Positions 1 to 53,445 of a stretch of 64,000 nt of DNA are shown here, piece by piece. The notes under the pieces were generated by a model. That model did not search any database, was not told where the DNA came from, and saw only the letters and a list, made by a program, of their open reading frames with translations. The first letter of the stretch is position 1, and each line of letters starts with the position of its first letter. The stretch is from positions 34,564-98,563 of the IMG/VR virus record IMGVR_UViG_3300023178_000019; one strand, written 5' to 3'. Position numbers and translations under genes: made by a program. This DNA comes from a virus.

Positions 1-3000
1 ATTTTATCATTTGGTTCAAAGATATATGGCTTCGCAAGTTGATTAAGTTGGCTACGTAAATAAACTACTAATCTTGCAACGTTAATTCTGTCTAGCGAAC
101 TTGCGCCTCTAGCACGAGTTTTCTGTCCAAAGTTAACAAGTCCTGCACCTGTAATAAACGTAATTGGGTTTACACCTTGTGCATATAATGTATCTCTTTG
201 TCCTTCATTTAGTGGTGTGCTTACAAATTCTCCTTCGCTGTTAATAAAGCCAGTTGAACTTGCATTGTTAATGCCGCCACGTCTTGTACCTGCTGGTGCA
301 AACCATGGATAGCTAACTTGGTCACTTAGTGCAATAGTTCTTAGCATCATGTGGCTTGGCGGAACAACAACATTGTTACCAAAGTTGTCGCTTGTAAAGC
401 CCCATGGATAAAACACACCTAAATATTCGTCATTAGTAACAAGACCATCGTCATTGTCTTCTACTGCTGCACGAACGTTTGTTGCCCATTCATTTAATGA
501 AGTAGCATCTGGTGTTAATCTTGCTGGCGAATCGCCAACTACAAATGCTGTTAATCCTCTATCAGCGTTAAGTGTTACTAGTTCGCCAATTAGTTCTGGA
601 TAACCTGGGCAAGATATTAAGTTAAATCTACGTGCATCTTCGTTGCGTATTTCGTCGTTTGAATTAACAACTGCTTGTAGTTTTTGTACAACAACTTTAC
701 GCTGTGCGTTGCGCCCAAAGCTGCCTGAACCATCTACATTGTTTGCACTTTCAGTTACCCAACGATCAGCAGCATAGTTTACCATCGATTCGTCACCAAA
801 GCGTAAGTTAACGTCTGTTGTATCAACATAATTCTTTTCGAAACGCTTAACATTAAATCCACTTCTGCGTGTATTGAATAGCAATGTTCCGCTTGGATAC
901 AATGCTGGATCTGGACAATCAGGATCTACATAATTTACTGCAAGCAAATCTGTAATATCTGCTGCTGTGTTTCCTGTTGCTCCACTTGACCCATAACGTG
1001 CATCTGCAAAAACAATACCGTTTTCTGTTGTTTGATCACCGTTGTCTACTAAAATCCAACGATCAGTACTTTTACGATATTTGTAAATTACTGGATAGTT
1101 TTCTAAGTCTGAAGTGTCAATCCATAAATCGCCTTCTACTAATGCACTACTACCATCTGATTGTGTAGTTGGTTGTGATGCACTTACAATAGGCCCGTTA
1201 GCATCTGTGCTATTGCTTAATGAATAAACTGGGCTGTCCGGATGTCTATATCCAACCCATTTGTTACCGTCATTGATCATAATGTCAACTTCATCAACAA
1301 TTGAGTTATACCATAGTGTTCCTGTTTCGGCAGTATTTGTTGGTTCGTTTTCTGATGCTGTGTAACTTAGTACTTCCCAATTACTTACTCTGTACTGAAC
1401 AGGATTACCTAATGAATTATCAATTCCTGGTTCGTCTGATACAAAGCGTGTTGAAGTACTAATACCTAATGCAGTAAGCATTGGCGCAAAACTACTTGCA
1501 ACATCAACAAATTTCATTTCGCCGCCTTGGCTATGTTTAATAACAACTGCATTGTTTTCATCAACTGATGCACTTACATACGGAATGTTTGCACTTGTAA
1601 TTGCTGCTGCAATAGCAATAGCAGTATCAGCTGCTGTTGACTGTGCTTCAACTTCAATTAGTCCTGGAACATCGCTGCTGAACACTGCTGAACCTGGTGA
1701 AGTTGCAGTAATTAACATTTTGTAAGTTTCACCATCTGTGAAGTTTGATAGTGTAATTGGTTGTGAAGAAACTTGAGTATTTCCAACTGTGCCTCTTTTA
1801 AATATTTTAAATGTACCTAACGGATCACTGTCTCCTGCAACATTTGATTGTACATATAAATCACCTATTTGTAAATTTGATCCGCCACCTGTTCTGTCTA
1901 GTTCAACTAGAGCAGATTCATTTGTTGGATAAATCGGTGCTTCAATAGAATCCCATAATTTAGTATCGTCATTCCATTGTCTAACTCTCCAGCGAGCACC
2001 ACCGTTTGGTGTAGTTGTTTTAAGCCATACACTTCCTGTTGGACGGCCATTATATGCAGTTCCTACTTTAAATGTGTCTGGAATTTGTGTGTGCTTACTA
2101 ATTTGTACTGCTGGAATTAAATAAGTTCCTGCATCAATATTTAAGAACTCTAAAACCGCTGTAGATGCATTTGAACCTGCTGCAAACTCTAATGATGTTG
2201 TTGAACTACCATCATTGTAAAATGCAATCTCTCCGCTTATTACGGCTGCTCTTATACCCGGAATTGATAGTCCGTTAATTGTTGCTGCTATGTCTGTAAC
2301 AGTTTCGCCAGTAGTAACAGTAATAACAGTTCCATTTAATACAAAAACGTCTGAGCCTTCATCTGTTGAATCGTCGCCAAATGTTGTACTTGTTTTGCTA
2401 CTAACTACAGTTGGAACGGCATCCTTCCAAGCAGTTGAACCTAGCTCAACCCAACCTGCGCTTGCTCTATACCAAACTTTGTTAAGAGTAGTTACAGCAA
2501 CGACTGCATAATCTCCAACTGAGCCAATTGAGCCTAGTGGTGTATAATCTTCGTTTTCGTAATCTATAACGTCTGATTGACTTGTAATAACAATAGGTGT
2601 TTGTGTTGTAAATGATTGTCCGCCTGTTATAGTTTCACTTGCATTATTCCATTCCTGGATACCAAATGCACTTGAACCAGTATCTAACCAATATGTTCCT
2701 GCATCTGGAAATGCTGTTGGAACTGATGATTGAGGAACTAGTTGTTTTAAGTCTATGTCGGCTCTTACAACCCATGCTCTGTTGCTTACACCTAAATATG
2801 AATAAGCTGCTTGTAATCCGTATTCACTTAATTCTGAACCGTGAATTGGATTATTGCTTGCATCAATTTGGAAAACTGGGTCGCCAAATGTTTCAGCTAG
2901 GTCACGTTGCGATGTCATTAAATAAGGCTTACCGGCATTTTCTGCTAGTGTACCTATCGCTGTTCCTGATCCTGAAGCATTTAGTTTGTTCTCTTGCGAT

Positions 3001-3544: not shown

Positions 3545-4034
3545 AAATAGTACGCATTAGCATTGCTACATTCTTTTCTAGACGCTTTAGATCGCCGTTG
3601 TTGTCAATTGTGTAATCACACATCCATTGTTCAATTGTCATTGAATTGTTATCTTCATGCGGCAAGTGGTCTGAACGATCTACCCAAATAGCATAATCAA
3701 AAATTTCTTCGTTTTGCATTGCAAAAAATTCACGTTTGTTGCGAAGTCCGCAGTATATGTCATGTTCTGCAAATAAATTACGTCCTAGTCTAGCAAGATC
3801 ATCTTTACAATAATCATGTATCATGTCATACCATAGTTTACGATGATTGTGCCTATCTGCATAACATTCTTCTTCGTCAGTATAACTGTACTTGTCTTTT
3901 AATTCATCAAAAATAAACAATTCACTACAAAATTTAGAACTAGACTGAAATGAATATCCGTAAAGTTCTAGCATTTCGCAAACAGTGTCTTTGCCGTGTC
4001 TGCCGTGTCCTACAACAAGTAGTTTAGGTAACAT
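3474..4034 (-). CDS. P-loop nucleotide kinase, dNMP kinase-like (T4 gp1 type)
   Basis: 186 residues beginning MLPKLLVVGHGRHGKDT. GHGRHGKDT at residues 9-17 is a P-loop of the GxxxxGKD(T/S) kind seen in phage deoxynucleoside monophosphate kinases, which phosphorylate dNMPs to dNDPs. A basic/aromatic segment (HRKLWYDMIHDYCKDDLARLG) and an acidic beta-strand (FDYAIWVDR) fit the lid and substrate regions of that fold. The role would be to feed dNTP pools during replication. The start has GGAG 8 nt upstream. The last 23 codons overlap the convergent HNH-like gene. Family assignment rests on the P-loop and overall pattern, so a related adenylate-kinase-like role is possible. Confidence 0.65.
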   Translation of the reverse strand: MLPKLLVVGHGRHGKDTVCEMLELYGYSFQSSSKFCSELFIFDELKDKYSYTDEEECYADRHNHRKLWYDMIHDYCKDDLARLGRNLFAEHDIYCGLRNKREFFAMQNEEIFDYAIWVDRSDHLPHEDNNSMTIEQWMCDYTIDNNGDLKRLEKNVAMLMRTIFKNQGLSLPVSTAPQFFAEYVDS

Positions 4035-8342: not shown

Positions 8343-9485
8343 ATGTCTAAAGTATTAGTTATTGGTGATTTAATAAATGATAGGTATATTTTTGGTTCTT
8401 CGACTAGGTTAAGTCCTGAAGCACCTGTACCTATTGTAAGTCAGGATCGTATAGAAGAATTTCTTGGTGGCGCAGGACTTGTTTATAACAACTTAAAAAG
8501 TTTAGGCGTCGATGCAACTTTATTAGAATACGACGATCCAAAAAGTGAAAAAACTCGTGTAATCTGTGATGGCCATTATGTTACAAGAATAGACGACGAT
8601 CGTTATGCTAACGGATTAGATATTTACAATGATATTAAAAAATTAGATTTATCTAATTTTGAATATGTTATTCTTAGCGATTACAATAAAGGTGTATTAG
8701 AATATTCAAAAGATATTATTGCACATCTTAATAGTTTTGATTGTAAAGTTATTGTAGATCCTAAACGCCACGTTAGTTGTTATGACGGGGCTTGGTTAGT
8801 AAAACCTAATTACAAAGAATACAAAGAATTAGGGTTTGAAAAATGGGACGGTAATATAATTGTCACTAATTCTAGTAAAACTACTACTGCTGAATTTGAT
8901 TTAAAACGTTATGTTTCGCAACCTGAACCTTTAGAAGTTAATGATGTAACCGGAGCCGGAGATTGTTTTCTTGCTGCATTTGTTTATGCGCTAACTAAAG
9001 GGTATGATTATCAAAAAGCATTAGATTTAGCAAATAGAGGATCAACTGAAAGTGTAAAACACGTAGGTACATATATTCTTACTGAAAAAGACTTGAATAA
9101 ACGTATTGTTTTTACTAACGGATGTTTTGATGTATTGCACAAAGGTCATCTTACATTACTAAAAGAAGCTCGCAGTTTAGGTGATAAACTTGTAGTAGGA
9201 CTGAATAGTGACGGTAGTGTAAAACGCTTAAAGGGAGACAACAGACCGTTTAACGATCTTGAAACAAGACGAGAACAATTAGAACTTATTCCGTATGTAG
9301 ACGAAGTTATTGTATTTCATGAAGATACGCCATATGAGCTTATTAAAGAACTAAAGCCAGACTTAATTGTTAAAGGTGGAGACTATACTGTAGAAGAAAT
9401 TGTAGGACATGATTTAGCACCTGTGCATATTGTACCTACAGTACAAGGTTACAGTACAACAAAAATTTTAGAGGCGTCTGTATGA
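8343..9485 (+). CDS. hldE: Bifunctional heptose 7-phosphate kinase / heptose 1-phosphate adenylyltransferase (HldE-like)
   Basis: 380 residues, two domains. Residues 1 to about 245 are a PfkB/ribokinase-type kinase: GDLINDRYIFGSSTRLSPEA at the N-terminus and the ATP/anion-hole motif NDVTGAGDCF near 200. Residues about 253-380 are a nucleotidyltransferase with FTNGCFDVLHKGHLTLLKEA (HxGH-type motif) and RLKGDNRPFNDL. The E. coli enzyme (about 477 residues) phosphorylates D-glycero-D-manno-heptose 7-phosphate and then makes ADP-heptose. Here the kinase domain is shortened but keeps its catalytic Asp. It overlaps hldD by ATGA and starts a four-gene operon. Confidence 0.9.
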   Translation: MSKVLVIGDLINDRYIFGSSTRLSPEAPVPIVSQDRIEEFLGGAGLVYNNLKSLGVDATLLEYDDPKSEKTRVICDGHYVTRIDDDRYANGLDIYNDIKKLDLSNFEYVILSDYNKGVLEYSKDIIAHLNSFDCKVIVDPKRHVSCYDGAWLVKPNYKEYKELGFEKWDGNIIVTNSSKTTTAEFDLKRYVSQPEPLEVNDVTGAGDCFLAAFVYALTKGYDYQKALDLANRGSTESVKHVGTYILTEKDLNKRIVFTNGCFDVLHKGHLTLLKEARSLGDKLVVGLNSDGSVKRLKGDNRPFNDLETRREQLELIPYVDEVIVFHEDTPYELIKELKPDLIVKGGDYTVEEIVGHDLAPVHIVPTVQGYSTTKILEASV

Positions 9486-10300
9486 AAATTTTAATTACTG
9501 GACACAAAGGATTTATTGGACAAAATCTAACTCTTAGATTACAAGACGAACACGAGCTATCAGGATATGAATGGCAAGCTGATTATTTGCCTGAAGTTGA
9601 AGGCTATGATTGGGTTATTCATTTAGGTGCTATTTCAAGCACAGCTGAACGTAATGTTGATAAGATCATGTTACAAAATTATGAATTTTCAAAATGGTTG
9701 TTTAATCAATGTAATCTAAAAGGTGTAAATTTTCAATATGCATCTAGTGCAAGTGTATATGGACCATACGAAAAGTTTAAAGAAGAAGATCCAAAACAAC
9801 CACAAAGTCCGTATGCTTGGAGCAAGTATCTTTTTGATAGATGGGTTACTGGACTCTCAAAAAGAAACATTATAGTTCAAGGATTTAGATATTTTAATGT
9901 ATACGGTCCTTTAGAAGACCACAAAGGACATCAAGCAAGTCCTATAACTAAATTTACTAATCAAGCAAAAGAAACTGGTACTATTTCTTTATTTGAAAAC
10001 AGCGACAAATACAAAAGAGATTTTATTTTTGTAGGCGATGTATGTGAAGCACATAAAAAATTATTATCTAGTGATGTTTCCGACATTTATAATATAGGAA
10101 CAGGAACTACTACAAGTTTTCAACAAATAGCAGACATTATTGCTAAAAAATATGATGCAAAAATTAAATATGTACCGATGCCGGATCATTTAGCAAATCA
10201 ATATCAAGAGTACACATGTGCAGACAATTCAAAATTAAGTAATATTGTAAAAATTAATTTTACAACAGTAGAGGAATATATAAATGGATCAGCCAACTAG
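9482..10300 (+). CDS. hldD: ADP-L-glycero-D-manno-heptose 6-epimerase (HldD-like)
   Basis: 272-residue extended short-chain dehydrogenase/epimerase. Rossmann motif GHKGFIG at residues 7-13. Catalytic SPYAWSKYLFD supplies Tyr and Lys (YxxxK), and the upstream Ser lies in FQYASSASVYG. HldD hallmarks are HLGAISSTAE, FRYFNVYGP, EDHKGHQAS and KRDFIFVGDV. The family epimerises ADP-D-glycero- to ADP-L-glycero-D-manno-heptose, the activated sugar for the LPS inner core. It is slightly shorter than E. coli HldD (310). It is translationally coupled to hldE (ATGA overlap), and its end overlaps the cupin gene by 17 bp. Confidence 0.9.
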   Translation: MKILITGHKGFIGQNLTLRLQDEHELSGYEWQADYLPEVEGYDWVIHLGAISSTAERNVDKIMLQNYEFSKWLFNQCNLKGVNFQYASSASVYGPYEKFKEEDPKQPQSPYAWSKYLFDRWVTGLSKRNIIVQGFRYFNVYGPLEDHKGHQASPITKFTNQAKETGTISLFENSDKYKRDFIFVGDVCEAHKKLLSSDVSDIYNIGTGTTTSFQQIADIIAKKYDAKIKYVPMPDHLANQYQEYTCADNSKLSNIVKINFTTVEEYINGSAN

Positions 10301-10670
10301 AAAGTCAGGTGTAGATCAAAAAGGTTGGGGCTACGAAATGATTTGGGCCACAAATGATTTATACTGCGGAAAAATTATGGTGTTTACTAGAGCTGGAGCA
10401 AAAACTAGTATGCACTTTCATAAAGAAAAAGACGAAACTTGGTTTGTAAACAACGGCAAATTTAAGGTTGCATACATTGATACAAAAAATTCAAAACTAC
10501 ATGAAAAAGAACTTAATGAAGGCGAAGTTTGGAGGAATCCTCCATTACAGCCACATCAATTAATTTGTCTTTCGAAAGAAGGAAGTGTTACAGAAGTTAG
10601 CACTCCAGATAGTGTTGAAGACAACTATAGAATTATTCCCGGCGACAGTCAAGTATTAAGCGAAGAATAA
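10284..10670 (+). CDS. Cupin protein, sugar-phosphate isomerase-like
   Basis: 128 residues forming a single cupin barrel. Motif 1 G(x)5HxH(x)4E(x)6G is seen as GAKTSMHFHKEKDE then TWFVNNG, and motif 2 as GEVWRNPPLQPHQL, giving metal ligands His, His, Glu, His. The N-terminus KGWGYEMIWATNDLYCGKIM resembles cupin domains of type II mannose-6-phosphate isomerases. Its place between hldD and gmhB suggests a step in sugar precursor supply. A dedicated GmhA (sedoheptulose 7-phosphate isomerase) is not present in the window, and this metal-dependent isomerase-like protein may stand in for it or feed another sugar. That is inference only. Confidence 0.75.
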   Translation: MDQPTRKSGVDQKGWGYEMIWATNDLYCGKIMVFTRAGAKTSMHFHKEKDETWFVNNGKFKVAYIDTKNSKLHEKELNEGEVWRNPPLQPHQLICLSKEGSVTEVSTPDSVEDNYRIIPGDSQVLSEE

Positions 10671-10671
10671 A

Positions 10672-11370
10672 ATGTATAGCATAAACTGGAGCAATAAAAA
10701 ATCAGACAACACTGTATCCGATAAAAAAGAATCTGCGATTCGATACAGTACAGATAAAACAGAAGAAGAATATAATATTCCATTCTACGATACTGTGAAT
10801 AATATTGCACCAAAAGTTGTTGTAGGTTTAGATAGAGACGGTGTTATTAATGTTGATCGTGGAGACTATACCTACAAGGTAGACGACTTTGAACCGATCG
10901 AAGGTAGTTTAAAAGCAATAGCTAAAATTCGTAGACTAGGTCATAAAATTGTTATTATAACAAATCAAGGCGGTATAAGTAAAGGCATTTATACTCAAAA
11001 CGATGTTGACACTGTACATAATCATATGTTTAATTTATTAGGTGAAGCAGGCTGTGCAAGTATAGATGCTCTTTATTATAGCGAAACTAGTGCTAGATGG
11101 GACCAGTATGCAAAACCTAATACCGGTATGTTTAAAAGATGTGAAAAAGAATTTCCTTTTATTAAATTTTCAAAAGGATTTTATGTAGGCGATAAAATAT
11201 CAGATCTAAAAGCTGCTTTTAAAATGGGAGCAAAGCCTGTACTAGTAAAAACAGGCTACGGAAATGAAACGTTAAAAGAACTTAACAAGTTTTCTAATCA
11301 AAAAATTAAAAAGAAAACTATTGTTTTTGATAATTTATCTAGCTTTGCTGATTGGTTATCTCGTCGATAG
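10672..11370 (+). CDS. gmhB: HAD phosphatase, heptose 1,7-bisphosphate phosphatase-like (GmhB)
   Basis: 232 residues. HAD motif I is LDRDGVINVDRGDYTYK (nucleophile Asp and general acid Asp), motif II IITNQGGISKG, motif III region KPNTGMFKR and motif IV FYVGDKISDLKAA. These are the GmhB/histidinol-phosphatase signatures. GmhB removes the C7 phosphate between the two HldE steps. The Cys/His zinc loop found in many GmhB enzymes between motifs II and III is not seen here (YYSETSARWDQYAKPN instead). A polar extension of about 50 residues precedes the HAD core. It is the last gene of the plus-strand cassette, and its 3' end overlaps the convergent oxygenase gene by 32 bp. Confidence 0.82.
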   Translation: MYSINWSNKKSDNTVSDKKESAIRYSTDKTEEEYNIPFYDTVNNIAPKVVVGLDRDGVINVDRGDYTYKVDDFEPIEGSLKAIAKIRRLGHKIVIITNQGGISKGIYTQNDVDTVHNHMFNLLGEAGCASIDALYYSETSARWDQYAKPNTGMFKRCEKEFPFIKFSKGFYVGDKISDLKAAFKMGAKPVLVKTGYGNETLKELNKFSNQKIKKKTIVFDNLSSFADWLSRR

Positions 11371-11962
11371 CTATTCCAAAATTTGCACTAATAGTGGATC
11401 TTAATTCATCAGCCTTGTGTGTTGATACATAATGATCTAAACTAGCAGGAAAGAAAATAATATCCCCTTCTTCTAGCGGCGGCGTAACTCTTCTTCCCAT
11501 AAACGGTTTGTTTGTAAAGCATTGTGCAAGATGTACCGGAAAATGACTGTAACTAGAATCATAAAAAGAAAAACTTGCACTGTTTGGTGGTAACTTTAAC
11601 ATATATGCACAGCTAATTACTAAATTTCCACCACTATGGGAATGTACTTCTTGGTATTGTCCTTTTGTATATCTATTTGCCCATGCTTGTCCGTACATTT
11701 TTTCACATGCTTCTTGTGACAATCCTATAGAATATGCATATTCGTCTACTAAATTATAAACAGTTTTAAAAAACAAATGCCAAGGAAATAAACTATTTTT
11801 TTCATCATTTTGAATTGTTGTTCTACAGTCACAATCCCAAAATGTTGCTTGATCAAAATTATCTTCAGACTCAATAAAAGGAGTAAATCCTTTTAAAATT
11901 TCTTCGTGATTAGGCATTTTTGTTTTATATACAGGTGTGCCAAAAATTACATTAAGACTCAT
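11339..11962 (-). CDS. 2OG-Fe(II) oxygenase family protein
   Basis: 207 residues with the features of the phage/cyanobacterial 2-oxoglutarate, Fe(II)-dependent oxygenase family: N-terminal NVIFGTPVYKTKMPNHEE, a WANRYTKGQYQEVHSHSGGN segment carrying metal-binding His, and a C-terminal GDIIFFPASLDHYVSTHK with the second His, then LRSTISANFGI with the Arg that binds 2-oxoglutarate. These enzymes hydroxylate proteins or small molecules. As the last gene of the operon with a glycosyltransferase and a carbamoyltransferase, a modification of the same sugar or of a fibre protein is plausible but not shown. Its start overlaps the end of the carbamoyltransferase gene by 11 bp. Confidence 0.78.
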   Translation of the reverse strand: MSLNVIFGTPVYKTKMPNHEEILKGFTPFIESEDNFDQATFWDCDCRTTIQNDEKNSLFPWHLFFKTVYNLVDEYAYSIGLSQEACEKMYGQAWANRYTKGQYQEVHSHSGGNLVISCAYMLKLPPNSASFSFYDSSYSHFPVHLAQCFTNKPFMGRRVTPPLEEGDIIFFPASLDHYVSTHKADELRSTISANFGIAIDEITNQQS

Positions 11963-13745
11963 TTTTTACCTTTACTAACTTTTTCTTTTCTGGCAAATAC
12001 AAATATTCAATTTTACTTTTTGCTAGTGTATGGAATGCATCTTCTAAAGTTTCAACTAGAGGATCGCCGCCTAAATTAAAACTTGTATTAAAAATAATCG
12101 GACAACCTGTCTTTTCTTTAAAGGCTTTAATCAAATCATAGTAGTTTGCATTTTGTTCTCTGTTAACAGTTTGAATACGGCAAGTTCCGTCTACGTGAAT
12201 AATAGCAGGAATCTTTTCTTCTACTCCGGGCTGACAATTAACAGCATACATCATTGTAGGAGAGTTTTTCATACCTCGCAAGTCAAACCATTCATGCACA
12301 TCTTCTTCTAGAATAGATCCTGCAAATGGGCGGAAATATTCTCTGTTTTTAACACGATTTACAAAATCTTTTCCGTCAGGATCTGTTGGATCATAAAGAA
12401 TACTTCTATTACCTAATGCACGTGGGCCGTTTTCACTACGTCCTTGAAATATTGTAACAATATTTTTGTTTGTAATTAAGTCGATAACATCTTCATTAGT
12501 AGCATCTGTAACTTCGGCAGAGTATTTTTTTGCTAGTTGTTGGATATCACCTTCTGTAATTTTATAATCTGGTCCTAGATAAACAGTTTCAGCTTGAGAA
12601 TCAATCGACATATCTTTAGTAAGACTTCTATGTAACCACAATGCTGCACCCATTGCAGTGCCGCCGTCATTTGAAACCGGCTCTACATAAAGATTAATAT
12701 CATTGTCTATCTCTTTTAAATAATGATAATTTGCAACACAATTCAACCCATATCCACCGCTTATAACAACATTTTTAATTCCTGTAGATTCAACAGCATG
12801 TTTTATTAGTTGAGTTACCGCTGCTTGAGATTCTACTTGTACTGCATATGCCATATCTCTTCTATTTTGGCATAGTGTTGCATCTTCTTCACCTTTGTCA
12901 ATCAAATAACTATATAAATTTTCGTTTAGAATAGAACCGTTTGGATATCTCGGAACAAATAAACTTCTATTACTTACTGGAATAGGCAAATCAGTATATG
13001 GATCAAATACCGGAGGAATTAAATCATTAGGTTTACCATATGGAAATAATCCCATAGTTTTTCCAGCTTCAATGGCATCCCAGCCACAGTATTCTGTTAC
13101 ACCCTCATAACACTTAACAATGCCTGCTCTATCAGATAACGAAGTTGAAAATTTACCTATTTCTTTACCAAAAATATCTTGATCAGGTGCTGTAAGTTCT
13201 GCTGTTGGCAGATAGTCTCTACAACCCATAGTTTTAAAAAGAGTTTGTATATTGTCTGGATATGTACATTTATATAATGTTTCAGTTTCCCACATATGTT
13301 TTATAGATCCGTCAACTTCTAAATCAAAACAAGTCCCAGCACCGTCAACAATAACTGCTACTGCTTCTTCAAAGCCACTTCTATAAAATGCTAAACTGGC
13401 ATGCATTTTATGATGTAGTTTAGATACATCGATTACTTGTGGATGCGGATCCCAAGGCGGAGAATACTCTATTAGACCTACTTTTCTAGCAAGACCTGTG
13501 TAAATATCCTCAGCAGTATAATCAACTCTACCAGCTGTTTCTGCAAGAGTTTGTGTATGCGATATTACCATGTAATCAAGTTTGTCTGTATACTCTAAAA
13601 TTTTTAGAATTGACGCTAACGGTCCTCCATCGTACTTTTTACGAGTAAGTCTTTCTTCTTCAATAGAAAAAACTATTTCTCCATCTTTTAATAAGCATAC
13701 TCCAGCATTGTGTCCTCTAGCAAGTCCTGCTATCCACATACTCAT
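11952..13745 (-). CDS. Carbamoyltransferase (NodU/CmcH family)
   Basis: 597 residues, full length for the family. The N-terminal ASKHA-type domain has GLARGHNAGVCLLKDGEIVF, SIEEERLTRKKYDGG, HHKMHASLAFYRSGFEEA and VDGAGT. Then come MGLFPYGKP and VVISGGYGLNCVANY. The C-terminal domain has the signature FQGRSENGPRALGNRSILYD and IIFNTSFNLGGDPLVETLED. These enzymes transfer a carbamoyl group from carbamoyl phosphate, through carbamoyl-AMP, to a hydroxyl, commonly on a sugar (nodulation factors, antibiotics). Here the likely acceptor is a sugar added by the neighbouring GT9-like protein. Its 5' end overlaps that gene by ATGA, so expression is coupled. Confidence 0.9.
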   Translation of the reverse strand: MSMWIAGLARGHNAGVCLLKDGEIVFSIEEERLTRKKYDGGPLASILKILEYTDKLDYMVISHTQTLAETAGRVDYTAEDIYTGLARKVGLIEYSPPWDPHPQVIDVSKLHHKMHASLAFYRSGFEEAVAVIVDGAGTCFDLEVDGSIKHMWETETLYKCTYPDNIQTLFKTMGCRDYLPTAELTAPDQDIFGKEIGKFSTSLSDRAGIVKCYEGVTEYCGWDAIEAGKTMGLFPYGKPNDLIPPVFDPYTDLPIPVSNRSLFVPRYPNGSILNENLYSYLIDKGEEDATLCQNRRDMAYAVQVESQAAVTQLIKHAVESTGIKNVVISGGYGLNCVANYHYLKEIDNDINLYVEPVSNDGGTAMGAALWLHRSLTKDMSIDSQAETVYLGPDYKITEGDIQQLAKKYSAEVTDATNEDVIDLITNKNIVTIFQGRSENGPRALGNRSILYDPTDPDGKDFVNRVKNREYFRPFAGSILEEDVHEWFDLRGMKNSPTMMYAVNCQPGVEEKIPAIIHVDGTCRIQTVNREQNANYYDLIKAFKEKTGCPIIFNTSFNLGGDPLVETLEDAFHTLAKSKIEYLYLPEKKKLVKVKNES

Positions 13746-51278: not shown

Positions 51279-51668
51279 TTAGATTGCAGTTAATACTAGT
51301 ACGTTTGCTGTTGAATCGTCAGTAACAGTCCATGTATAACGATTGTTATTAAAATCAAACATTGTACGGTTGTGTACTTTACGAATGTTTACAGCACTTT
51401 CTCCGGCTACAAAACCTTGTAGAACCATTTCGTTAGCTGCTAGTGATCCAATTGCTTTGTCAACTAGTGTACATACACCTGTGTTACCTGATGTTCCATC
51501 TGGATCATCGTGACAGTTAAATTTTGTTTCTGAGCGTTGTGATAAAATTACACCGTTGCCAACTGCTGCGTTAGCACCAATTTTACACATTACTGTTAGG
51601 TTATTACCTTCAGTACCTGCTGAACCTTCAGTAGCACCAAAGTATCTTTTGTTTAATGGGCGTCCCAT
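51279..51668 (-). CDS. Abundant-type virion protein next to gp23, unknown
   Basis: 129 residues beginning MGRPLNKRYFGATEGSAGTE. Ala/Gly/Asn-rich beta protein with VGNGVILSQRSETKFNC and a C-terminal MFDFNNNRYTWTVTDDS. Two Cys only. No known domain. A late promoter, a structured leader, AAAGGAG upstream of the ATG and a terminator directly downstream make it a separate, strongly expressed unit, as expected for a high-copy head or tail decoration protein. That role is inferred from expression signals and position. Confidence 0.65.
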   Translation of the reverse strand: MGRPLNKRYFGATEGSAGTEGNNLTVMCKIGANAAVGNGVILSQRSETKFNCHDDPDGTSGNTGVCTLVDKAIGSLAANEMVLQGFVAGESAVNIRKVHNRTMFDFNNNRYTWTVTDDSTANVLVLTAI

Positions 51669-51689
51669 AATTATCTCCTTTGTTTAATC

Positions 51690-51758
51690 ATTGCCGTTCT
51701 AGGGTCTACGCGGTGAGTTTCCGCATAAGTCCTCAATAGAGGCTCCTATATGACAATA
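51690..51758 (-). promoter_or_regulatory. Structured three-way-junction leader of the 129-residue gene
   Basis: On the minus strand: a closing helix TAGG/CCTA (possibly extended by ATTG/CAAT if transcription starts early enough), hairpin CCTC-TATT-GAGG and a 7-bp hairpin TATGCGG/CCGCGTA with loop AAACTCA. It begins right at the predicted late transcript 5' end. Not a known riboswitch to me; perhaps a stability or translation element. Confidence 0.5.
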
Positions 51759-51800: not shown

Positions 51801-52020
51801 TAAGAATAAGCAAAATAGGTAGGACTCGGTTACACCTACAAGCCGCGGACCAAATACCATTTCATCTCCGCAACAACCTGCTTCCGCTCGGTAGAGCGAT
51901 GTGACACTGCCTGTTTCCAGTACAACGCCTGGGTACCACCCCTAAGCAGTCAAGTTCGACGCTCTGGTAAACGCCTCTTCCTTGCACTATAAACATTGAC
52001 TAGCTAAGTCTTTGTTGCTT
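51774..52020 (-). ncRNA. Candidate independent structured ncRNA, about 240 nt
   Basis: The stretch has no ORF on either strand worth calling but is GC-richer than its surroundings and lies between a sigma70-like promoter and an intrinsic terminator on the minus strand. Internal complementarity is dense: AGAGCG with CGCTCT, CTGCTT with AAGCAG, CCAG with CTGG, CGCTC/GAGCG hairpin, GCGGA with TCCGC, and GTAGG with CCTAC near the 3' end. I compared it by eye with tmRNA (no tag ORF, no T-arm/CCA), RNase P, SRP and 6S RNA and found no convincing match. It could be a phage regulatory RNA or RNA with a structural or sponge role. Confidence 0.6.
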
Positions 52021-52056: not shown

Positions 52057-52110
52057 CCACTTTTTATAGAAAATTAATGATTTTCTGCAAGATTTTTTTT
52101 AAAAAGTGTG

Positions 52111-52134
52111 TTTAAATAATAGTTGAAAGGAGAG
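52111..52134 (+). promoter_or_regulatory. Promoter-like motif and strong ribosome binding site of pqqA
   Basis: TTTAAATAAT at 52111-52120 resembles the late motif. AAAGGAGAG at 52126-52134 is one of the strongest Shine-Dalgarno sequences in the window and stands 4-6 nt from the ATG at 52139. Confidence 0.5.
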
Positions 52135-52138
52135 CATT

Positions 52139-52210
52139 ATGTGGACAAAACCTAGCTATACTGAAATGCGTTTTGGCTTTGAAGTTACAATGTATGTAAT
52201 GAACAAGTAA
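52139..52210 (+). CDS. pqqA: PqqA-like peptide, precursor of pyrroloquinoline quinone
   Basis: 23-codon gene. The peptide starts MWTKPSYTEMRFG and continues FEVTMYVMNK. Proteobacterial PqqA has the pattern MW.KPa..dlR.G.EVT.Y....r. Both residues that become PQQ are present with the correct spacing: Glu15 and Tyr19 in E-V-T-M-Y. PqqD presents the peptide to the radical-SAM enzyme PqqE, which cross-links Glu and Tyr before PqqF/G cleavage and PqqB/PqqC maturation. None of these enzymes is in the window, so the host would supply them. The gene has its own strong ribosome binding site, stop and bidirectional terminator and lies antisense between gp23 and the ncRNA. Confidence 0.85.
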   Translation: MWTKPSYTEMRFGFEVTMYVMNK

Positions 52211-52224
52211 AAATGTAGTCAAAA

Positions 52225-52258
52225 AAATAGGCCCCGTAGGGCCTATTTCTAGTTTTTT
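52225..52258. terminator. Bidirectional terminator between pqqA and gp23
   Basis: Perfect 10-bp stem AAATAGGCCC/GGGCCTATTT with a CGTA loop. Plus-strand reading is followed by TCTAGTTTTTT (ends pqqA); minus-strand reading by TTTT (ends gp23). Confidence 0.88.
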
Positions 52259-52269
52259 ACAACTATAAC

Positions 52270-53445
52270 TTAGCTAAATGTTACGCCTGCGGCGATATCA
52301 ACTTTACCTAAGTAGTCAGCTGCGTTACCTAGTGATGACGCAGTGTTTGTAAGCTCAACATAACCATAACGTGTCATAAATGATACTGTTGGTTCGAATG
52401 TTGATGGATCTAGTACAACACCTGAGCTCATTAGTGGGATATATGGGCAGTAGAACGCTGCTGCGTCTGACTCGCTTGATCCTTTATAACCAATAAGAAC
52501 TGGTGCAGTATCTGATGCATATGTGTTAACATATACTTTCATTGCGTTGTTCAATGTACCAACCATTTTTGTGTTAGTTGGTGCTTCGAATGTACCTTCT
52601 GTTGTACGAGCGAACGCTGAAGTAGTTGCTGACTGTAGGATTGTTAGCGCGAATGGGCTAACAACTGCCCAGTTACCAGCACCACGTCTTGTACGCTGTG
52701 CAATCAAGTTTGATACTCTGTTGATTTGAACTGCTAGTGCAGCATGTTCGTCACCAACAAAAGTAGCTGTACCTGAAACGGCTGTTTGATCATAAGTTTC
52801 AGTAGCAGCGCCTGCTAGTGAACTTAGTGAGCCTAGTACTTCTTGGTCGATTTCAGCAGTAATCTCTTGAGCAAGTGCTGCCATGATTTCTGCTTCAACG
52901 TCAATACCGTGCTGTGATTGAGCATCTTGTGCCGCTTCGAATGTCCAGCGAGCTGATAGCTTTCTGGTTTTCGCTTCGACAGTTTGTTTCAAGATTTGGA
53001 TTGACATTCTGTTACCAGCCTGTCCTTCAAGTGCTGCTGTTGCCGCTGCGCGGTCAGTTGCTGCATCACCTGAATATCCTTCTGCAATCTTGAACGGTGA
53101 TAGTGCTTCTTCACCAGCAGTAGCTGAAGTGCCACCTGTGCTAGTAAAGTCGTCGCTATAACGTACTCTTAGTGTGTGGATTTGACCCACTGGACCTGTC
53201 ATTGGCTGAACACCAACCAACTCGTTTGCAATAACGGTTGGCATAACACGTCTGATAACTGGTAGGATAACTCTGTTTAGAGTTGCTACATTACCGGCAG
53301 AAGTTGCACCAGCTGTTGCTGATTCTGAAAGATACTTACGAGTATTTTCTAGAGTCGCTTCCATAACAGCTTTCTTGTTGCCTTTTAGGCCTTCAACAAG
53401 TGCAGTCTTAGTGTCCTGCCAGCGACTTTCTAATAGTTCTGACAT
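52270..53445 (-). CDS. 23: Major capsid protein gp23
   Basis: 391 residues, T4-type HK97-fold capsid protein. Conserved segments: NRVILPVIRRVMPTVIANEL, VGVQPMTGPVGQIHTLRVRY, RKLSARWTFEAAQDAQSQHG, VSPFALTILQSA, VLIGYKGSSESDAAAFYCPY and SFMTRYGYVELTNTASSLGN. T4 gp23 is 521 residues, so this is a compact form lacking insertion-domain length. The prohead protease recognises L/I-x-E; LSE at 39-41 followed by SATAG is a good propeptide cleavage site. It ends at a strong bidirectional terminator. gp22 and gp21 precede it in the usual T4 order. Confidence 0.95.
   Translation of the reverse strand: MSELLESRWQDTKTALVEGLKGNKKAVMEATLENTRKYLSESATAGATSAGNVATLNRVILPVIRRVMPTVIANELVGVQPMTGPVGQIHTLRVRYSDDFTSTGGTSATAGEEALSPFKIAEGYSGDAATDRAAATAALEGQAGNRMSIQILKQTVEAKTRKLSARWTFEAAQDAQSQHGIDVEAEIMAALAQEITAEIDQEVLGSLSSLAGAATETYDQTAVSGTATFVGDEHAALAVQINRVSNLIAQRTRRGAGNWAVVSPFALTILQSATTSAFARTTEGTFEAPTNTKMVGTLNNAMKVYVNTYASDTAPVLIGYKGSSESDAAAFYCPYIPLMSSGVVLDPSTFEPTVSFMTRYGYVELTNTASSLGNAADYLGKVDIAAGVTFS

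Follow-up and report, generated by a model that had tools for sequence, protein, structure and literature searches.

The pqqA gene and its surroundings

The window, by which we mean the whole 64-kb stretch of DNA analysed here (34564-98563 of a 98,563-base virus record), contains a small open reading frame of 72 bases, made up of 23 codons and a TAA stop, whose product is a peptide of the PqqA family (Table 1). The peptide matches both the Pfam model PqqA (PF08042; 46 bits, E 4.5e-12, cut-off 21.1) and the NCBIfam equivalog TIGR02107 (47 bits, cut-off 20), scoring twice the curated cut-offs. It has in common with the family its length, W2, P5 and R11, and contains the core G13-F14-E15-V-T-M-Y19, in which the PQQ-forming glutamate and tyrosine (Glu15 and Tyr19) keep their E-x3-Y spacing. 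An earlier note on this DNA had described a 23-codon ORF of PqqA type with these two residues, and translation and model scores agree with it exactly. Judged by its sequence, the ORF is a genuine phage-borne pqqA. It is the only copy in the entire 98.6-kb record, and differs from the family at large in being encoded alone on a phage without pqqB-E. The note had also reported no other pqq gene in the window; indeed, models for PqqB-E found no match in the 64 kb, and those for PqqB, PqqE and PQQ alcohol (methanol) dehydrogenase found none in the whole 98.6-kb record.

The neighbours of pqqA, all on one side of it, encode a gp23-type major head protein, a head maturation protease and a portal protein, and a T4-type tail sheath stabiliser and a baseplate protein are encoded elsewhere in the window. 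An auxiliary gene should lie in a bona fide phage genome, and these head, protease, portal, tail and baseplate genes, together with the occurrence of pqqA in cultured phages (see below), place it in one. At about 68-71% identity, the capsid protein is nearest to its counterparts in phages with genomes of ~350 kb and larger, such as Vibrio phage 2.275.O, Erwinia SNUABM phages and Serratia phage BF. The record is therefore probably just part of the genome of a large T4-superfamily phage, in which case the absence of other genes from it carries little meaning. The window also contains a cluster encoding PfkB plus cytidylyltransferase (HldE-like), a sugar epimerase and a HAD phosphatase, which looks like a phage-borne heptose nucleotide pathway, and a Nol-like carbamoyltransferase.

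The Shine-Dalgarno sequence attributed to pqqA is present, and a conserved stretch further upstream is a candidate promoter or leader of the gene. Two other claims about the locus hold in part. A terminator belonging to pqqA had been proposed, and a 10-bp hairpin with a T tract does follow the gene, with folding z scores of -4.0 on the pqqA strand and -4.7 on the other strand; however, it has a U tract on both strands and can also end the capsid transcript, making it probably a terminator shared by the two genes. Similarly, pqqA was described as antisense to the head genes. It does lie on the opposite strand, but it overlaps no head gene, occupying the gap that separates the stop of the capsid gene (52270) from an RNA element of the other strand. 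Divergent from pqqA is what is probably a phage-borne manA-type RNA (RF01745; full-length match, 49.8 bits, E 1e-11, below the gathering score of 55.2), with its own promoter-like site and terminator. A match to freshwater-2 RNA (RF02980; 45.3 bits, gathering score 49.9) ends at the start codon of an uncharacterised gene, of which it is likely the leader. The Rfam search of the window gave no family at or above its gathering score.

Table 1. Features of the window, in window coordinates
Feature	Position	Strand	Evidence or remark
pqqA, 23-aa precursor peptide MWTKPSYTEMRFGFEVTMYVMNK	52139..52210	+	PqqA model matches; kept in >100 viral loci
pqqA Glu15 codon	52181-52183	+	Translation
pqqA Tyr19 codon	52193-52195	+	Translation
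Shine-Dalgarno-like GAAAGGAG	52125..52132	+	6 nt between its end and the pqqA ATG
Upstream stretch GTGTGTTTAAATAATA, candidate promoter or leader	52106..52121	+	Kept in relative L101 despite opposite gene orientation there
Palindromic hairpin, U tracts on both strands	52225..52248	.	10 bp and T tract; folding z scores
Major head protein, gp23-like	52270..53445	-	phrog_138, 3e-100; converges on pqqA
manA-type RNA (probable)	51809-52009	-	RF01745
Promoter-like site of manA-type RNA	52056-52029	-	
Terminator of manA-type RNA	51801-51778	-	
freshwater-2 RNA match, likely leader	51666-51743	-	RF02980
Uncharacterised gene	51279-51668		
Cluster resembling heptose nucleotide pathway	8343-11370	+	
Nol-like carbamoyltransferase	11952-13745	-	

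Viral homologues and selection on the peptide

Homologues of the gene are widespread among viruses. The pattern GFEVTMY occurs in at least 119 virus contigs, essentially all of them encoding full PqqA peptides with a ribosome site, and a pattern for the N-terminal half, which is blind to Glu15 and Tyr19, also occurs in at least 119. Among the matches listed for this second pattern, both Glu15 and Tyr19 are present in all 108 distinct genes, codon 24 is a stop in 123/123 with no internal stops, and an SD-like core lies upstream in 124/124, a set that is still drawn from Methylophilaceae-type PqqA; one further match (L134) is cut by the contig end. Loss of either residue or of the frame, which was looked for in these relatives, was thus found in none of them. 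Over codons 12-23, outside the pattern, pS is 0.71 and pN 0.045 (pN/pS 0.064); a pooled pN/pS of 0.16 was set aside because both search patterns fix residues, and only the unfixed half was used. This low ratio, together with the invariant Glu15, Tyr19 and length, demonstrates at the codon level strong purifying selection on the peptide. Conservation in more than 100 viral homologues strongly supports the view that the gene encodes a functional PqqA precursor and is under selection for this peptide, in keeping with the earlier impression that it looks selected. A few viral variants (e.g. L011, L025, L032) depart from the form typical of Methylophilaceae, and other hosts may be their source.

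The gene is also found in phages in culture. A tblastn search of 50,697 phage records with the window peptide gave 12 matches, nine of which are cultured Methylophilales phages, namely Venkman, P19250A, MEP301, MEP401, MEP402 and four Melnitz strains; PqqA is therefore encoded by six different cultured phages from several lineages. The remaining three are an environmental podovirus (Manatee Spring) and two records named Acinetobacter phage (MD-2021a). The latter were rejected as viral evidence because the record inspected (L008, CAKLQF020000010.1) contains the whole pqqABCDE operon of a bacterium along with further chromosomal genes, and appears to be a bacterial contig under a wrong name. The phage records inspected either leave pqqA unannotated or mask it with a hypothetical ORF on the opposite strand. 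Common gene callers have a default minimum of 90 nt, and at 72 nt the gene was likely missed for this reason. PqqA is mentioned neither in the paper on MEP401/402 nor in that on Melnitz, where PQQ appears as a medium component only.

Viral pqqA is a solitary gene. In a sample of 50 of the longest pqqA-bearing virus records, each has exactly one pqqA, none has a PqqE match above cut-off and a single one has a methanol dehydrogenase, and the fetched flanks of 155 viral loci contain no pqqB-E. Terminase matches above cut-off occur in 22 of the 50 records and gp23 in four, indicating that phages of different kinds are represented. Between the window and most other loci, DNA similarity is confined to about 52125-52210, which spans just the ribosome site and pqqA; Venkman, for example, shares 78 nt at 92.5% and no other similarity in 19 kb. 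This fits a small mobile cassette, although the pattern could arise in part if the phages drew on a common host gene kept under strong constraint. Grouping the loci by shared ORFs yields between 4 and 28 groups according to the threshold, numbers so strongly affected by chaining that they do not serve as a count of independent acquisitions.

The earlier note had suggested looking in other marine myophages for the same ORF downstream of gene 23. It is there in L135, which is 99.96% identical to the window and belongs to the same phage species, and in the relative L101, whose head genes are 74% identical to those of the window and whose pqqA DNA is 90% identical, but in Melnitz pqqA is far from gp23 (74.9 vs 126.8 kb), as it is in two other records with gp23, G021 and G026. 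Adjacency to gp23 as a general rule was rejected, being limited to L135 and L101. In L101, pqqA is downstream of gp23 and on the same strand, behind gp23's own terminator; it has a terminator of its own, and the upstream motif is kept. Since adjacency is limited to close relatives and the orientation flips in L101, the antisense placement is not what is selected, and what is kept is the peptide unit rather than its orientation. Between the gp23 terminator and pqqA of L101 there is a glutamine riboswitch (341-388 (-); RF01739, 50 bits) followed by a 28-codon ORF, and pqqA may be co-regulated with glutamine in this phage.

Methylophilaceae as the predicted host group

The last 14 residues of the peptide (MRFGFEVTMYVMNK) occur in at least 120 stretches of one-genome-per-species bacterial contigs. 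The titles of the matches listed are Methylotenera, Methylophilus, Methylopumilus, OM43 and other Methylophilaceae, with the others assigned to unresolved Betaproteobacteria, Nitrosomonadales or Pseudomonadota. Among bacteria the sequence is thus essentially restricted, in the matches listed, to Methylophilaceae, which points to a Methylophilaceae methylotroph as the host of the phage. The earlier note expected a PQQ-making host, and this distribution, alongside the cultured carriers that infect methylotrophs, supports that view and narrows it to one family. It had named methanol or sugar dehydrogenases as the enzymes served; with the host so narrowed, methanol oxidation is retained and sugar oxidation is not. 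An auxiliary gene should also have a host homologue with a metabolic role, and here the PqqA of Methylophilaceae has the identical C-terminal 14 residues. Phage-host pairs are available in culture, e.g. Venkman and Melnitz on strain H5P1. Published media for OM43 include PQQ at 1 nM (PMC9004378), an amount that might hide an effect of phage pqqA.

Hosts of this family themselves carry additional copies of the gene. At least 80 of 124 Methylophilaceae pqqA copies have no pqqB-E within 2.5 kb downstream, which suggests that Methylophilaceae multiply pqqA outside the operon; pqqB-E lie downstream of 22 copies, and 22 more are too near the tile edge. These orphan genes resemble the phage copy in encoding a nearly identical peptide as a single gene outside the pqq operon, and many viral peptides are identical to host peptides. 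They differ in being chromosomal, and positions 4-8 and 20-21 are more variable among the viral copies. A strain producing PQQ on methanol has five pqqA copies, three of them separate (PMC9851590), and in the OM43 isolate NB0046 xoxF was always the most abundant transcript (PMC5120137).

A possible role of PqqA in infection

We consider it likely that the phage adds PqqA to the PqqB-E of its host, sustaining PQQ for XoxF methanol dehydrogenase and for replication. During infection of a Methylophilaceae methylotroph the phage would make extra PqqA peptide. Host PqqD/PqqE would join Glu15 and Tyr19 by a cross-link, and PqqB, PqqC and proteases of the host would complete PQQ. The cofactor would load host XoxF methanol dehydrogenase and keep it charged as host transcription declines, and methanol-derived energy and carbon would keep flowing to phage replication. 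PqqA is consumed at one molecule per PQQ, while PqqB-E are catalysts, and a substrate without enzymes would therefore be the smallest genetic investment by which to raise PQQ when the precursor limits. That the same tiny gene is found in many unrelated methylotroph phages suggests that viruses probably feed cofactor production in infected cells. The results above establish the gene, its family, the selection on the peptide and its solitary occurrence, and point to the host group; that phage PqqA is expressed and processed, that PQQ rises and that the phage benefits we infer. Counting against a supply role, the hosts already hold several pqqA copies, meaning that the precursor may not be limiting, and the record, probably a fragment, gave no match to the methanol dehydrogenase model.

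The peptide could also be made for a use of PQQ other than methanol oxidation, by another PQQ enzyme or in redox protection during infection. The rarity of methanol dehydrogenase among the 50 long records is consistent with this, as are L011, L025 and L032, which are not of the Methylophilaceae type and may stem from other hosts, but the phages in culture that carry pqqA grow on OM43/LD28-type methylotrophs, in which no transcript is more abundant than xoxF, and we regard such a use as unlikely. A substrate encoded without its enzymes (0/50 for PqqE, 0 of 155 loci for pqqB-E) might also be a decoy, as an effect on host metabolism could go in either direction: phage PqqA would occupy host PqqD/PqqE and lower PQQ synthesis, for example throttling host metabolism or starving competitors. 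A decoy would have no need of both cross-linked residues, however, whereas the 108 distinct genes among the matches listed all retain Glu15, Tyr19 and the exact length, and many viral peptides equal host peptides exactly, which leaves this reading a small probability.

Two further readings deny the peptide any role. Being small, host-like and found at scattered positions, pqqA might be host DNA picked up by chance and unused, but the pN/pS over the unselected half of the gene, the lack of internal stops, the retention of start, SD and stop in all matches listed, and the 90% identity of L101 pqqA against 74% for the head genes make this very improbable. The convergence of pqqA on gp23 over a common terminator would suit a reading in which selection acts on RNA at the capsid gene's 3' end, antisense or regulatory, and the ORF is incidental. 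As constraint acts at the codon level and the gene is far from gp23 in Melnitz, G021 and G026, this has scarcely any likelihood, and the antisense reading was rejected on the flip of orientation in L101.

Returning to the supply of PqqA to the host pathway, we lean slightly towards a broader view in which phages of methylotrophs share pqqA convergently as a core gene. It would be a cassette of ~85 nt (ribosome site and 23 codons) that moves among unrelated lineages, escapes gene callers by being shorter than 90 nt, and lets viruses set the cofactor supply of methanol oxidation through nothing but the consumed substrate of a peptide-derived pathway. Cyanophage psbA-type genes are alike in being host-derived, in sustaining host energy in infection and in occurring across unrelated phages of one host group, but psbA replaces a damaged enzyme part whereas pqqA supplies a consumed substrate peptide. 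As a stoichiometric pathway substrate and not an enzyme, PqqA is an unusual auxiliary gene product. Methylophilaceae are major methanol oxidisers of coastal seas and lakes, and if most of their phages do carry pqqA, viruses would directly influence the cofactor of methanol dehydrogenase and hence methanol turnover. The gene is also an example of a class of viral metabolic genes, below the usual 90-nt limit, that standard annotation overlooks.

Virus-borne pqqA is of a kind already known. The T4-like phage population VP_266 from Lake Baikal, reported in 2020 with a predicted Methylophilaceae host, encodes PqqA and methanol dehydrogenase (PMC7678222), and viral pqqA appears with the phosphorus-related genes of a reservoir study from 2026 (PMC13188868). 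VP_266 resembles the window phage in being T4-like, in its predicted host and in having PqqA as an auxiliary metabolic gene, but it carries a methanol dehydrogenase, which the record of the window phage does not, and it is one population, whereas the distribution described here is wide and solitary. New here are the presence of pqqA in several phage isolates of Methylophilales that are unrelated to one another, as well as in many unrelated contigs, and its nature as an apparently mobile gene, nearly always without another PQQ gene, that was overlooked in the annotations of isolates. Two other pqqA-bearing virus contigs have unusual contents. One (L284 3990-12790; G012:C1 30000-46000, the contig of L050) encodes an XoxF-type methanol dehydrogenase with a WDYDG motif, a molybdopterin formate-dehydrogenase-like protein, SoxYZ and a curlin-repeat protein, a candidate viral module for methanol, formate and sulfur oxidation. 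The other (L131) contains a permuted tmRNA (3707-4003 (+); RF04321, 81 bits).
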